Source: Denitrovibrio acetiphilus DSM 12809
Lineage (GTDB): Bacteria > Chrysiogenota > Deferribacteres > Deferribacterales > Geovibrionaceae
Direction of reading: 5' to 3'
DNA length: 64,000 bases
Assembly (NCBI RefSeq): GCF_000025725.1
Contig: NC_013943.1
Span: forward strand, 2,418,001-2,482,000
Of this stretch, positions 40,170-63,811 are shown piece after piece. Numbering within the stretch: position 1 is the stretch's first letter; each line of letters starts with the position of its first letter. The position numbers and the translations under genes are program-made. The notes under the pieces are model-generated. The model was not told where the DNA came from. It searched no databases and worked only from the letters and a program-made list of their open reading frames with translations.

Positions 40170-40212
40170 AAAAAAAAGTCCAGACGTTTCATATTACTGA
40201 AACAGCCCAGAC
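40170..40212 (-). terminator. Terminator stem of the glyA ZTP riboswitch
   Basis: On the minus strand GTCTGGGC-T-GTTTCA pairs with TGAAAC-GTCTGGAC (14 pairs, some G-U, one bulged base, loop GTAATA), followed by eight Ts (40170-40177). Its 5' arm is the conserved 3' element of the aptamer (40205-40212), so ligand binding and terminator are mutually exclusive. Confidence 0.8.
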
Positions 40213-40282
40213 GCACGGCTTCTTATAATTGCTGTACTCCCCGGAGGTGTTCTCCTCCAAAAGCGTCAGTCATACAGCTAAG
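40200..40282 (-). ncRNA. ZTP (pfl) riboswitch upstream of glyA
   Basis: On the minus strand: P1 GCTGTA (40273-40278) with TACAGC (40231-40236); conserved TGACTGACG next to it; a GGAGG/CCTCC hairpin; conserved GGGGAG before the P1 3' strand; then GCCGTGCGTCTGGGC (40205-40219). This is the ZTP aptamer order (TGACTGGCG ... GGGGAG ... CCGCCTGGGC); the change GGCG to GACG is matched by CGCC to CGTC, a compensating pair. ZTP/ZMP signals low 10-formyl-THF; switching on glyA is an established output. Confidence 0.88.
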
Positions 40283-40371
40283 TAAAATCTAATCAAATTA
40301 ATCGATATTGTCAAAGGATTATTTAATGTCTAAAAAATATGCATAAAAAACACATACTCAGGGACATTTCA

Positions 40372-58361: not shown

Positions 58362-58615
58362 GGCGCCAGCATAATCTAAAACACTGTACACTAAGGACAT
58401 TATGAACACACACTCATAACAGCACCCTCTATCATACTGTTGACACAGAAACAATAATGCGCTCAAAAAAAAGGCGATGCCCGAAGACACCGCCTTTATA
58501 TATCTTTTAAGCTTTCAGCACCCGAACCGAGTGTTCCTCGGCAATAGCAGCTCAGCAATACCTATTACTGATTCGTTAAGCTGTGCCGGTGCCAATAAGA
58601 AGCAGTTGAACCTAC
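58362..58615. other. 3' region of the kor operon with terminator
   Basis: About 250 bp. AAAGGCG (58470-58476) and CGCCTTT (58491-58497) form a stem; on the minus strand it is followed by a T-rich run (58461-58469), a terminator for the kor operon. Between it and korC a loose dyad (GGCA..CAGCT with AGCTG..TGCC, about 58542-58592) is visible. No gene. Confidence 0.55.
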
Positions 58616-61132: not shown

Positions 61133-61327
61133 TTATTTTTTATACACTTCGATAGCGAAATCAGGGCACCTGAGTTCGCACTGCATGCAAGCTATACACT
61201 TGTCCAGATCTTTGACCGCTGCTTTGAAATCTTTCATTTCAAGAGCATCGACGGGGCAAAGCTCCACACAAATCTCACAGCCTTTGCAGAGGTTTGTGTA
61301 AATTTCGATTTTTTCTGCCTTAGCCAT
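61133..61327 (-). CDS. korD: 2-oxoglutarate:ferredoxin oxidoreductase, ferredoxin-like delta subunit
   Basis: 64-residue protein with two [4Fe-4S] motifs, CKGCEICVELCPVDAL (about 14-29) and CIACMQCELRCPDFAI. Carries electrons from the TPP subunits to ferredoxin. First gene of the operon, ATG behind AAGGAGAGG, after a long leader. Confidence 0.95.
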   Translation of the reverse strand: MAKAEKIEIYTNLCKGCEICVELCPVDALEMKDFKAAVKDLDKCIACMQCELRCPDFAIEVYKK

Positions 61328-61373
61328 TTACCTCTCCTTAATATATTTGAGATTCTCAAATCGAATTTATCTA

Positions 61374-61492
61374 AAAGAGGGGCTCTCAGCCTCTTTCGGA
61401 TGCCTGAAAAACAAAAACTACCATAAACAGTGTTATGAATAATTTTCCCTTATTTACAGGTACTTCCGAAAGGAGCTATAAAGCCCCTCTTT
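61374..61492 (-). ncRNA. Candidate structured leader (long imperfect hairpin) of the kor operon
   Basis: The 119-nt segment folds on itself: perfect 11-bp outer stem (61374-61384 with 61482-61492, AAAGAGGGGCT/AGCCCCTCTTT), small internal loop and a 4-pair step (61388-61392 with 61474-61477), 8-bp stem (61393-61400 with 61465-61472), 2-nt bulge, 6-bp stem (61401-61406 with 61457-61462) and an apical loop of about 50 nt. It lies inside the predicted 5' UTR. No known riboswitch recognised; a MITE-like inverted repeat is the alternative. Confidence 0.55.
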
Positions 61493-61519: not shown

Positions 61520-61548
61520 GTTATACCCCGAGTAAACACAGATGTCAA
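61520..61548 (-). promoter_or_regulatory. Strong sigma-70 promoter of korDABC
   Basis: Perfect TTGACA (61543-61548) and TATAAC (61520-61525) on the minus strand with a 17-bp spacer. Predicted start near 61513, giving a leader of about 185 nt before korD. Confidence 0.75.
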
Positions 61549-61564
61549 ACATGTAAACAATTAT

Positions 61565-62452
61565 TTACTTTTTCTTTTTTCTGAGCACTTCAGCAACCTT
61601 CTTTCCTATGTCAGCAGGAGACTCCACAACATGGACACCATGTTCCCGTAAAGCCTTCATTTTAGCTGCTGCTGTGTCATCTCCACCAGAAATTATTGCA
61701 CCTGCGTGCCCCATTCTTTTACCTTTCGGTGCTGTCTGACCTGCGATAAAACTAACGACCGGCTTAGAGAAATTCTGTTTTATCCACTCTCCGGCTTTCA
61801 CTTCTGCCTGCCCGCCGATCTCACCGATGAGGACAACACATTCTGTTTGTGCGTCATACTCAAACATCTCAAGAAGATCTATATACTTAAGTCCGACAAT
61901 AGGATCACCGCCGATACCAATACATGTAGACTGACCGAACCCTTCAGCCCCGACCTGCTTCACAGCCTCATAAGTCAGAGTTCCTGATTTCGAAATGATG
62001 CCTATCGTCCCGGGCTTATGAATTTCTCCGGGCATAATTCCCATCTTACATTCCCCAGGAGTGATAACCCCGGGGCAGTTGGGACCTACAAGCATGGTTC
62101 TGGATGAGCTTGTTGTCATCAGTCTTTTAACCATGATCATATCTTTAACAGGGATGCCCTCTGTGATACATACACAAAGGTCGAGATTAGCATCAATAGA
62201 TTCTATAACCGCATCAGCAGCATATGCAGGCGGAACATAAACAATGGAAGCATTCGCCCCTGTTTTTCTGATTGCCTCTTCCACTGTGTCAAACACCGGC
62301 GTCCCGTCGACTTCGAGACCACCTTTGCCCGGTACAACACCGGCAACAATGTTTGTGCCGTACTCTTTCATCTTCTGTGCATGGAACCTGCCCTGAGAGC
62401 CTGTAAGCCCCTGCACCAGAACTTTAGTTCTGTTATTAACAAGTATGCTCAT
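61565..62452 (-). CDS. sucD: Succinyl-CoA synthetase, alpha subunit
   Basis: 295-residue alpha subunit of succinate-CoA ligase. CoA-binding Rossmann start [20 protein letters not shown], and the phosphohistidine in [14 protein letters not shown] (about 245). Follows sucC by 11 bp. Confidence 0.97.
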
Positions 62453-62463
62453 CTGTGCTCTCC

Positions 62464-63678
62464 TTATTTAGCCTTGTTTCTGGGTGTTTTCTTTTTGTTT
62501 TCAGCTTCTTCAGCAAGTTTTACAGCTTTTTCAGCCGCATCTGCCATAGTGTCGCCGGTAACAATGTTCAGACCGCTCTTACTCGCGCCGTCTTCCAGAA
62601 TCTTTTTGCCTTCTTCGACATTCGTTCCATCGAGTCTGACAACGATGTACCTGTCTCCCGGAACTTCTTCAGAGGCCTTAAGTACACCCTGAGCTATGAG
62701 GTCACAGCGGACAATACCGCCGAATATATTTACAAAAATCACCTTAACTTTTGGGTCTGTAAGGATAATTTTGAATGCTTCACGTACTTTGTTGACATCT
62801 GCACCACCCCCTACATCAAGGAAGTTGGCAGGCTGTCCGCCATATGATTTTATGATGTCCATAGTAGCCATTGCAAGTCCGGCTCCGTTAACCATACAGC
62901 CGATATTGCCTTCCATACTGACATAAGAGAGATCAAAGATACTGGCGCGAACTTCTTGCGGCTCGAGCTCACCATAATCTTTCATCTCTTCTATCGCTCT
63001 GTGTCTGAAAAGTGCGTTTTCGTCAACTGACATCTTGGCGTCGAGACAAACTATGTCCCCACTGCCTGTAACAACCAGAGGATTGATTTCAAGCATCATA
63101 CCGTCATGATCAATAAAACACTGGTATAATTTGTTTGTAACATCTGCGAATTTATTGAGGAGTGAAGAATCCAGCCCCATCTTTTTGGCAATTTTTCTTC
63201 CGAGAAACTGCCCCATCCCCGTCACAGGATTAATGCGCTCTTTTATAACTTTTTCCGGTGTTTTCGCAGCTACCTGCTCAATCTCAACACCGCCTTCTGA
63301 GCTTGCTATTATCATGTGCTGCTCAGAATCTCTGTCCACCAGGAAACTCACGTATATTTCCTGTTTAATGTCTGTAGCTTTTTCAACCAGAATCCTGCGG
63401 ACAATTTTGCCCTCATCTCCGGTCTGTTTGGTGACGATCTTCATACCAAGCATGTTGGCTGAAAGATCATAAAGATCGCTGAAGACATCAACAACTTTGA
63501 CGCCACCAGCCTTTCCTCTTCCCCCTGCGTGAACTTGAGCCTTTATCACCCATCGGTCACTGTGAAGTTCTTTAGCTACACGGAGTGCGTCGCTCGCAGT
63601 GGATGCTACACCACCGTCAGGGACGGGAACGCCGTATGTCCTGAGTAGGCCTTTGGCCTGAAATTCATGCAAATTCAT
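62464..63678 (-). CDS. sucC: Succinyl-CoA synthetase, beta subunit
   Basis: 404 residues. ATP-grasp start [37 protein letters not shown] (about 48-63), EINPLVV and the interface segment [15 protein letters not shown] basic C-terminal tail ([12 protein letters not shown]) extends past the usual end. Forms the enzyme with sucD. Confidence 0.97.
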
Positions 63679-63811
63679 GGCTCACCTTCCTTCAAATTTC
63701 TTCCAGAATCAATACCCGTATATACACCGAATATCCTTAGTCTACAAGACTTTTTGCAGTAAGTGAGCCATGATCACAATCTTTGTACTAATCGTGAACT
63801 TGCATTAACTA

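Follow-up and report, generated by a model that had tools for sequence, protein, structure and literature searches.

Intercistronic and leaky terminator stem-loops consist of a stable stem between operon genes followed by a U-rich stretch, and an intrinsic terminator carries a run of about 6-8 U directly after its stem. Transposase genes are known to be locked against read-through, and one RNA motif, the sucC motif RF01759, is located upstream of sucC. The published account, in the part cited here, assigns RF01759 to gamma-Proteobacteria (PMC2864571). For the phage T4 gene e and I-TevI, the sections cited describe an upstream arm that pairs with the Shine-Dalgarno sequence and AUG, and a promoter inside the structure that yields free transcripts (PMC3014915, PMC2988022). 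A review of MITEs (Correia, ERIC, QMITE and similar) states, in the portion drawn on here, that Correia-bearing mRNA is cut by RNase III at the inverted repeats (PMC10969869).

We compared these systems with two gene junctions of Denitrovibrio acetiphilus DSM 12809. The window is the whole 64,000-nucleotide stretch of its chromosome that was analysed. Since korDABC, sucCD, the hairpin and its promoter all lie on the minus strand, the RNA to be folded is the reverse complement. The features of the sucD-korD junction and its flanking genes are as follows.

63678-61565, minus strand: sucCD
61565-62452, minus strand: sucD, the gene upstream of the junction, ending 72 nt upstream of the hairpin
61520-61548, minus strand: sigma-70-like promoter, TTGACA-17-TATAAC, recognised by sequence, upstream of the hairpin
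61374-61492, minus strand: 119-nt hairpin, supported by fold energy, z-score and genome ranks
61346-61360, minus strand: palindrome-like TTTGAGAATCTCAAA, 15 bp, just upstream of the korD ribosome-binding site
61325-61339, minus strand: ribosome-binding site and ATG of korD, both single-stranded in the MFE fold of the leader
61133-61327, minus strand: korD, a 64-aa 4Fe-4S ferredoxin-type delta subunit, first of korD, korA, korB and korC

The korDABC products were assigned by Pfam and NCBIfam as 2-oxoacid:acceptor oxidoreductase subunits plus a ferredoxin-type delta subunit; korD itself scored under the cutoffs of the NCBIfam models shown for it. The frame ending before sucC matches malate dehydrogenase over its last 62 residues, a partial match, and is named mdh here. 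The junction is 237 nt long and contains, in order, the promoter (61548-61520), the hairpin (61492-61374), the palindrome (61360-61346) and the korD ribosome site. Eleven of the 12 consensus bases are present in the promoter, and equivalent promoters with 17-nt spacing were seen in both congeners, BM701 (G001; 10/12) and BM704 (G002, a MAG; 11/12). Our pattern search missed TATAAC because it demanded T at the last -10 base. The sequence-only reading had placed the hairpin in the korDABC leader behind a near-consensus promoter, and both the promoter and the gene assignments bear this out.

The palindrome TTTGAGAATCTCAAA is unchanged in BM701 and altered in BM704. Exact sites number one per genome in D. 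acetiphilus and in BM701, and a regulon was rejected on that count; at up to 3 mismatches the window holds 15 matches against 4.2 expected, on 11 places. A leader peptide was also rejected: by eye, the leader ATG reads 9 codons here and 15 in BM704, and in BM701 it is ATG-TAA, with no Shine-Dalgarno sequence seen before the leader ATG in any of the three genomes. A scan of viral contigs with korD found no relative. The korD of BM704 (G002:C13:24716-24907) contains an in-frame TAA, reflecting either gene decay or an assembly error.

On the kor-sense strand the hairpin folded to an MFE of -53.5 kcal/mol (z -8.18, 0/200 shuffles as stable) as a single unbranched structure of 47 pairs; the plus strand gave -41.6 (z -6.11). 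On the 5' side 30 of the first 36 bases are paired, and the apical region between CCTG and CAGG spans 50 nt. The earlier description of a near-perfect 119-nt hairpin at 61374-61492 was therefore accurate. As background we folded 462 kb of the same genome (20 stretches totalling 398 kb, plus the window) in 150-nt windows at a step of 30 on both strands. The hairpin window ranked 40 of 30,606 by raw energy and 2 of 30,606 after linear GC correction. None of 30,648 windows of 119 nt reached -53.5, a count biased in the hairpin's favour because such windows are out of register with other hairpins. Unbranched stems of at least 36 pairs occur in 1483 windows of the background folds, so the length alone is unremarkable: it is the stability for its GC that stands out. 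The hairpin is real, more than chance and unusually stable. Another very stable intergenic inverted repeat was noted in the same genome at 648430-648550 (L080:8430-8550), and no second copy of it was found.

Folded alone, the 5' half of the hairpin reached -12.0 kcal/mol and the 3' half -5.9. In MFE folds of growing transcripts the stem of the 5' half formed first, and the whole helix closed once the 3' arm was made. Whether the 3' half folds locally or as part of the long helix, the structure runs up to one and the same weak U-tract, UUUUAGAU.

Comparison within the genus, which covered three Denitrovibrio genomes, divided the hairpin into three parts.

61482-61492, minus strand: 5' arm of an inferred older short stem, AAAGAGGGGCT, from alignment with BM701 and BM704
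61388-61481, minus strand: 94-nt segment absent from both congeners
61374-61384, minus strand: 3' arm of the same putative older stem, AGCCCCTCTTT; the U-tract UUUUAGAU begins within its final bases

Both congeners carry a short terminator-like stem, 26 nt in BM701 (AAAGAGGTGGATGACTAACACCCTTT) and 28 nt in BM704 (AAAGGGGTATTCGACTAGTACCCCTTTT), bracketed by the equivalent promoter and a near-identical 3' flank (TAGATAAATT..GAGAATCTC). Two MAFFT runs placed the surplus D. acetiphilus bases inside the loop of the short stem; an earlier alignment with trimmed input had instead aligned the second half of the hairpin to the congener stem. Removal of the 94 nt leaves AAAGAGGGGCT-GAG-AGCCCCTCTTT, which folds to -17.5 kcal/mol with all 11 bp of the stem paired and GAG as the loop. 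Because this empty-site stem is restored, the hairpin seems to have an old base, with the remainder a novelty of D. acetiphilus: by alignment, the hairpin looks like an ordinary junction stem enlarged by insertion in one species. The BM701 stem is weak (-6.6) and sucCD do not lie upstream of kor in that genome, which fits decay or a minor role. Comparative data thus reduce a striking RNA structure to two parts, a stem at the junction and an insertion confined to this lineage; the kor hairpin is real but ordinary in kind.

A MITE in the leader had been offered as one explanation for the hairpin, and part of this stood: the surplus has the appearance of sequence inserted in the loop of a short hairpin that was there before. 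On such an account a MITE-like mobile element would have entered a terminator-like stem loop, with any effect on kor incidental. In the alignment the insertion lies within the loop with intact flanks. Imperfect inverted ends of about 20 nt, AGCTCCTTTCGGAAGTACCTG and CAGGCATCCGAAAGAGGCT, overlap the host stem (identified partly by eye), and the direct repeat AAAGAGG occurs at both edges; 33/5000 shuffles match it within the last 16 nt. This repeat is not significant if sought anywhere in the insert (312/5000 shuffles). Genome sites within 3 mismatches of one arm numbered 16 against 7 for a reversed control, a mild excess made up of one exact site, one with 2 mismatches and 14 with 3. Like the MITEs reviewed (PMC10969869), the hairpin has an AT-rich centre, is hairpin-forming and intergenic, and resembles an insertion; unlike the elements described in that source, it has no second copy that we could find, and terminal repeats and a target duplication are unproven here.

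The genome-wide check found no second copy of the hairpin segment in its own genome. Among the matches listed from 58 other genomes there was no copy, only short partial matches, the best being 42 nt of the AT-rich apical part (81%, E 2e-4, G043). There was none in 72,556 plasmid records, and in phage records just three matches came up, each covering 39 nt of the apical part with an E value of 0.1. No transposase-linked relative was seen. On these results a multi-copy MITE was rejected, and with no second copy and a target duplication that is only suggested, the hairpin cannot be called a MITE. We consider a MITE-like origin unlikely, if still a serious candidate.

An inverted duplication or template switching of a short stem would give a similar outcome: the two halves are small hairpins that are mutual reverse complements. 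They match as inverted copies over 28 columns, a score reached by 2/1000 shuffles, and each folds alone. Inverted similarity is, however, expected of any hairpin, and a middle of about 60 nt is left unexplained, so we hold this origin to be improbable. A direct tandem duplication of promoter and stem was tried and rejected: only ATAACACTGT is shared, and shuffles scored as high in 67/1000 cases, or 448/1000 with softer scoring.

For function, the account we prefer, with about an even chance of being right, is that the sucCD-kor junction carries a leaky terminator or mRNA-end stem, of which the hairpin is a version enlarged in this species. Its RNA would fold into a single long helix that stops at the weak U-tract, where the congeners' short stem also stops. 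Acting as a leaky intrinsic terminator, the stem would end much of the read-through from sucCD and may protect the sucCD 3' end, with a fraction of transcripts, including those from the promoter just upstream, continuing into korDABC. The extra 94 nt would have been gained by insertion or inverted duplication, and the enlarged helix would be long enough for a plausible RNase III substrate, as RNase III can cut helices of such length. We infer promoter activity, termination, leakiness, end protection and processing.

A stable G+C-rich stem is present, the basal 11 bp of AAAGAGGGGCT/AGCCCCTCTTT. The U-tract has a T-run of 4 and a T-score of 3.27, compared with 8 and 5.13 after korC. Among 46 ORF-end hairpins in a rough survey, 11 had a T-run of at least 6, and the hairpin's U-tract ranks as intermediate within its own genome. 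Four U are so few that termination may fail altogether. A strong terminator directly 3' of a promoter would also be counterproductive for kor, which counts against a terminator. Elsewhere in the family, junction hairpins of G003, G004, G006, G008 and G009 have T-scores of 1.18-2.12, that of G010 3.24 and that of BM701 2.63. Since there is almost no U at the first five, the common role could be protection of an mRNA end, not termination. The hairpin shares with leaky terminator stem-loops a stable stem between operon genes and the U-rich stretch that follows, and a short stem of poorly conserved sequence stands at the equivalent place in both congeners. It differs in its 47 pairs, its T-run of only 4 and the promoter-like sequence upstream, which puts it in a leader as well. 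The structured region after korC (58441-58590, minus strand, z -5.03) has a canonical terminator at its end.

The sequence-only reading had raised a new cis-regulatory RNA for kor as one possibility, and a lineage-specific leader sensing a ligand or protein (a riboswitch or attenuator) could account for the position between promoter and first gene, the exceptional stability for GC and the possibility of two folds, one with each half paired locally and one with a single long helix. The long form is, however, not conserved in kor leaders, an outcome that the sequence-only reading had itself named as refuting: it was found in one of three Denitrovibrio and one of 12 family genomes; neither congener has it, nor has any other genome of the family. 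A conserved kor riboswitch was rejected for lack of orthologues of the long form, and a new cis-regulatory RNA in the sense of a conserved sensor is not supported. Because one 3' arm and one U-tract serve both folds and the korD ribosome site stays unpaired at the MFE, no on/off alternative can be seen, nor can an antiterminator in MFE folds of growing transcripts. The Rfam 15 scan of the window at gathering thresholds gave no match at the hairpin, in agreement with the earlier statement that it resembles no recognised riboswitch. The best sub-threshold score was 28.6 bits against a cutoff of 100, and the sub-threshold families were discarded as generic hairpins. We therefore think a sensing leader very improbable. 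The sole match in the window at gathering threshold was a ZMP-ZTP riboswitch at 40198-40283 on the minus strand.

A small RNA in its own right, about 140 nt long and running from the promoter to the end of the hairpin, would fit the order of elements: something like a promoter, then a stable hairpin and a short U-tract. Against it stand the weakness of that U-tract, a hairpin sequence that is not conserved in the congeners and a promoter equally placed to serve kor, and we give this reading hardly any weight.

Junction stems were also examined beyond the genus. The region upstream of korD was read in 30 loci (only 13 nt in L030) and the region after sucD in 12/12 family genomes, although the sucD of BM701 is diverged and lies elsewhere. 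In a control-free scan that takes the strongest local stem, the strongest hairpin began no more than 13 nt from the sucD stop in six of 11 intact junctions (G003, G004, G006, G008, G009 and G010), at +29 in G007 and G011, and farther away in D. acetiphilus, BM704 and G005. The hairpin sequences differ between genera of the family. When whole junctions were folded, at most 1/200 shuffles was as stable in 7/12 genomes (D. acetiphilus, G004, G006, G007, G008, G009 and G011); in the others the number of shuffles as stable, out of 200, was 23 in BM701, 24 in BM704, 13 in G003, 28 in G005 and 9 in G010. In three genomes of other families (G017, G024 and G018) a sucD-like frame, judged by eye, ends a few bases before korD, leaving no room for a junction hairpin.

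In genus g4 the sucD-korD junctions of G007 and G011 (L069 and L066) contain a dispersed repeat of that genus. At E <= 1e-5 it gave 7 matches in G007 and 12 in G011, the junction places included, 5 in G010, 2 in G009 and none in D. acetiphilus. This invasion of the same junction is a further point for a MITE-like origin of the D. acetiphilus insertion. We infer that the sucD-korD junction tolerates hairpin-forming sequence.

One junction upstream, between mdh and sucC, lies a better-conserved candidate for an RNA lock.

63674-63775, minus strand: sucC leader inverted repeat, which would lock the sucC Shine-Dalgarno sequence and AUG, supported by covariation

Here TCATGGCTCACTT pairs with AGGTGAGCCATGA, the latter holding the sucC Shine-Dalgarno sequence and AUG. 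The element ranked 3 in the GC-corrected window ranking (fold z -5.65) and had no Rfam match in the window at gathering threshold. That includes RF01759, the motif named for sucC. As in the T4 gene e and I-TevI lock, in the parts of the sources cited, an upstream arm pairs with the Shine-Dalgarno sequence and AUG (PMC3014915, PMC2988022), so a long read-through RNA would be locked. The two differ in that sucC is a cellular central-carbon gene and in that a nested promoter freeing it can be proposed but not asserted, because consensus scoring did not beat shuffles: a nested TTG-17-TA spacing recurs, with scores in none of 17 elements clearly above those of shuffled loops (best G018, 26/300). 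A search of open-licence literature with a few terms found no description of the kor hairpin or the sucC leader element.

Of 59 genomes searched, 33 were found to have sucC, and 30 of these were compared as loci. Sixteen had a stem score of at least 26: the 11 family genomes with this sucC, and G025, G018, G024, G017 and G030. Scores of 23 in G013 and G020 came from different, smaller stems at the sucC start, which were left out of the element count, and 12 others, including BM701 (sucC 51% identical), scored 14-19. Across the family (11 aligned sequences, 10 of them distinct) 94.3% of cells pair and four pairs changed on both sides, with as many in 6/500 shuffles; the covariation score exceeded 500/500 shuffles. 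A wider set of 17 elements with 12 distinct arm pairs was built by adding BM701 and two other families, with registers from a covariance model. In this set 91% of cells pair and seven pairs changed on both sides (27/2000 shuffles); paired cells and covariation exceeded all 2000 shuffles, which, like those of the family alignment, ignore relatedness. The number of pair types was not above shuffles in the wider set (882/2000), and the outermost pair or two do not form in the sequences that were added. At E <= 0.1 the covariance model gave one match per genome in 14/59 genomes; weaker matches came from G030 (E 0.0057), G017 (0.011) and G024 (0.14). The sucC element is conserved in three families of the order, where compensatory changes have kept its pairing, and that pairing would lock the sucC start.

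In BM701 a sucC-type element persists between mdh and kor (L180; G001:C14:149283-149381), although sucCD are not there. Both of its arms have changed in step. The sucCD of this genome, at 51% and 61% identity, are diverged and sit on a different contig.

The sucC leader is probably more important than the kor hairpin: it is a conserved RNA from a phylum that has had little study, and the mechanism proposed for it is documented, in the parts of the T4 work cited, for a phage (PMC3014915, PMC2988022). A more speculative model, which we regard as rather doubtful, is that mdh-sucCD-korDABC carries RNA devices at both junctions, the sucC lock closing on RNA that runs on from mdh and being freed by starts internal to its loop, as for T4 gene e, and the sucD-korD stem setting entry into kor. 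If true, promoter choice would uncouple succinyl-CoA synthetase from 2-oxoglutarate:ferredoxin oxidoreductase at one chromosomal locus.

Gene starts sampled from the same genome gave a background for the sucC stem: 5/312 scored as high, against 0.4 expected from shuffles. These five were three that share one IS4-family transposase gene start, one local repeat and sucC itself. At the IS4-family starts (L080 from 1452, plus strand; L083 from 7842, plus strand; L093, minus strand) an inverted repeat, ATAGAAAAAGTCTC / GAGACTTTTTCTAT, covers the ribosome site and AUG and is likely a read-through lock. The L080 frame passes the NCBIfam transposase cutoff, that of L083 is a shorter match below the cutoff, and that of L093 has the same first 40 residues.
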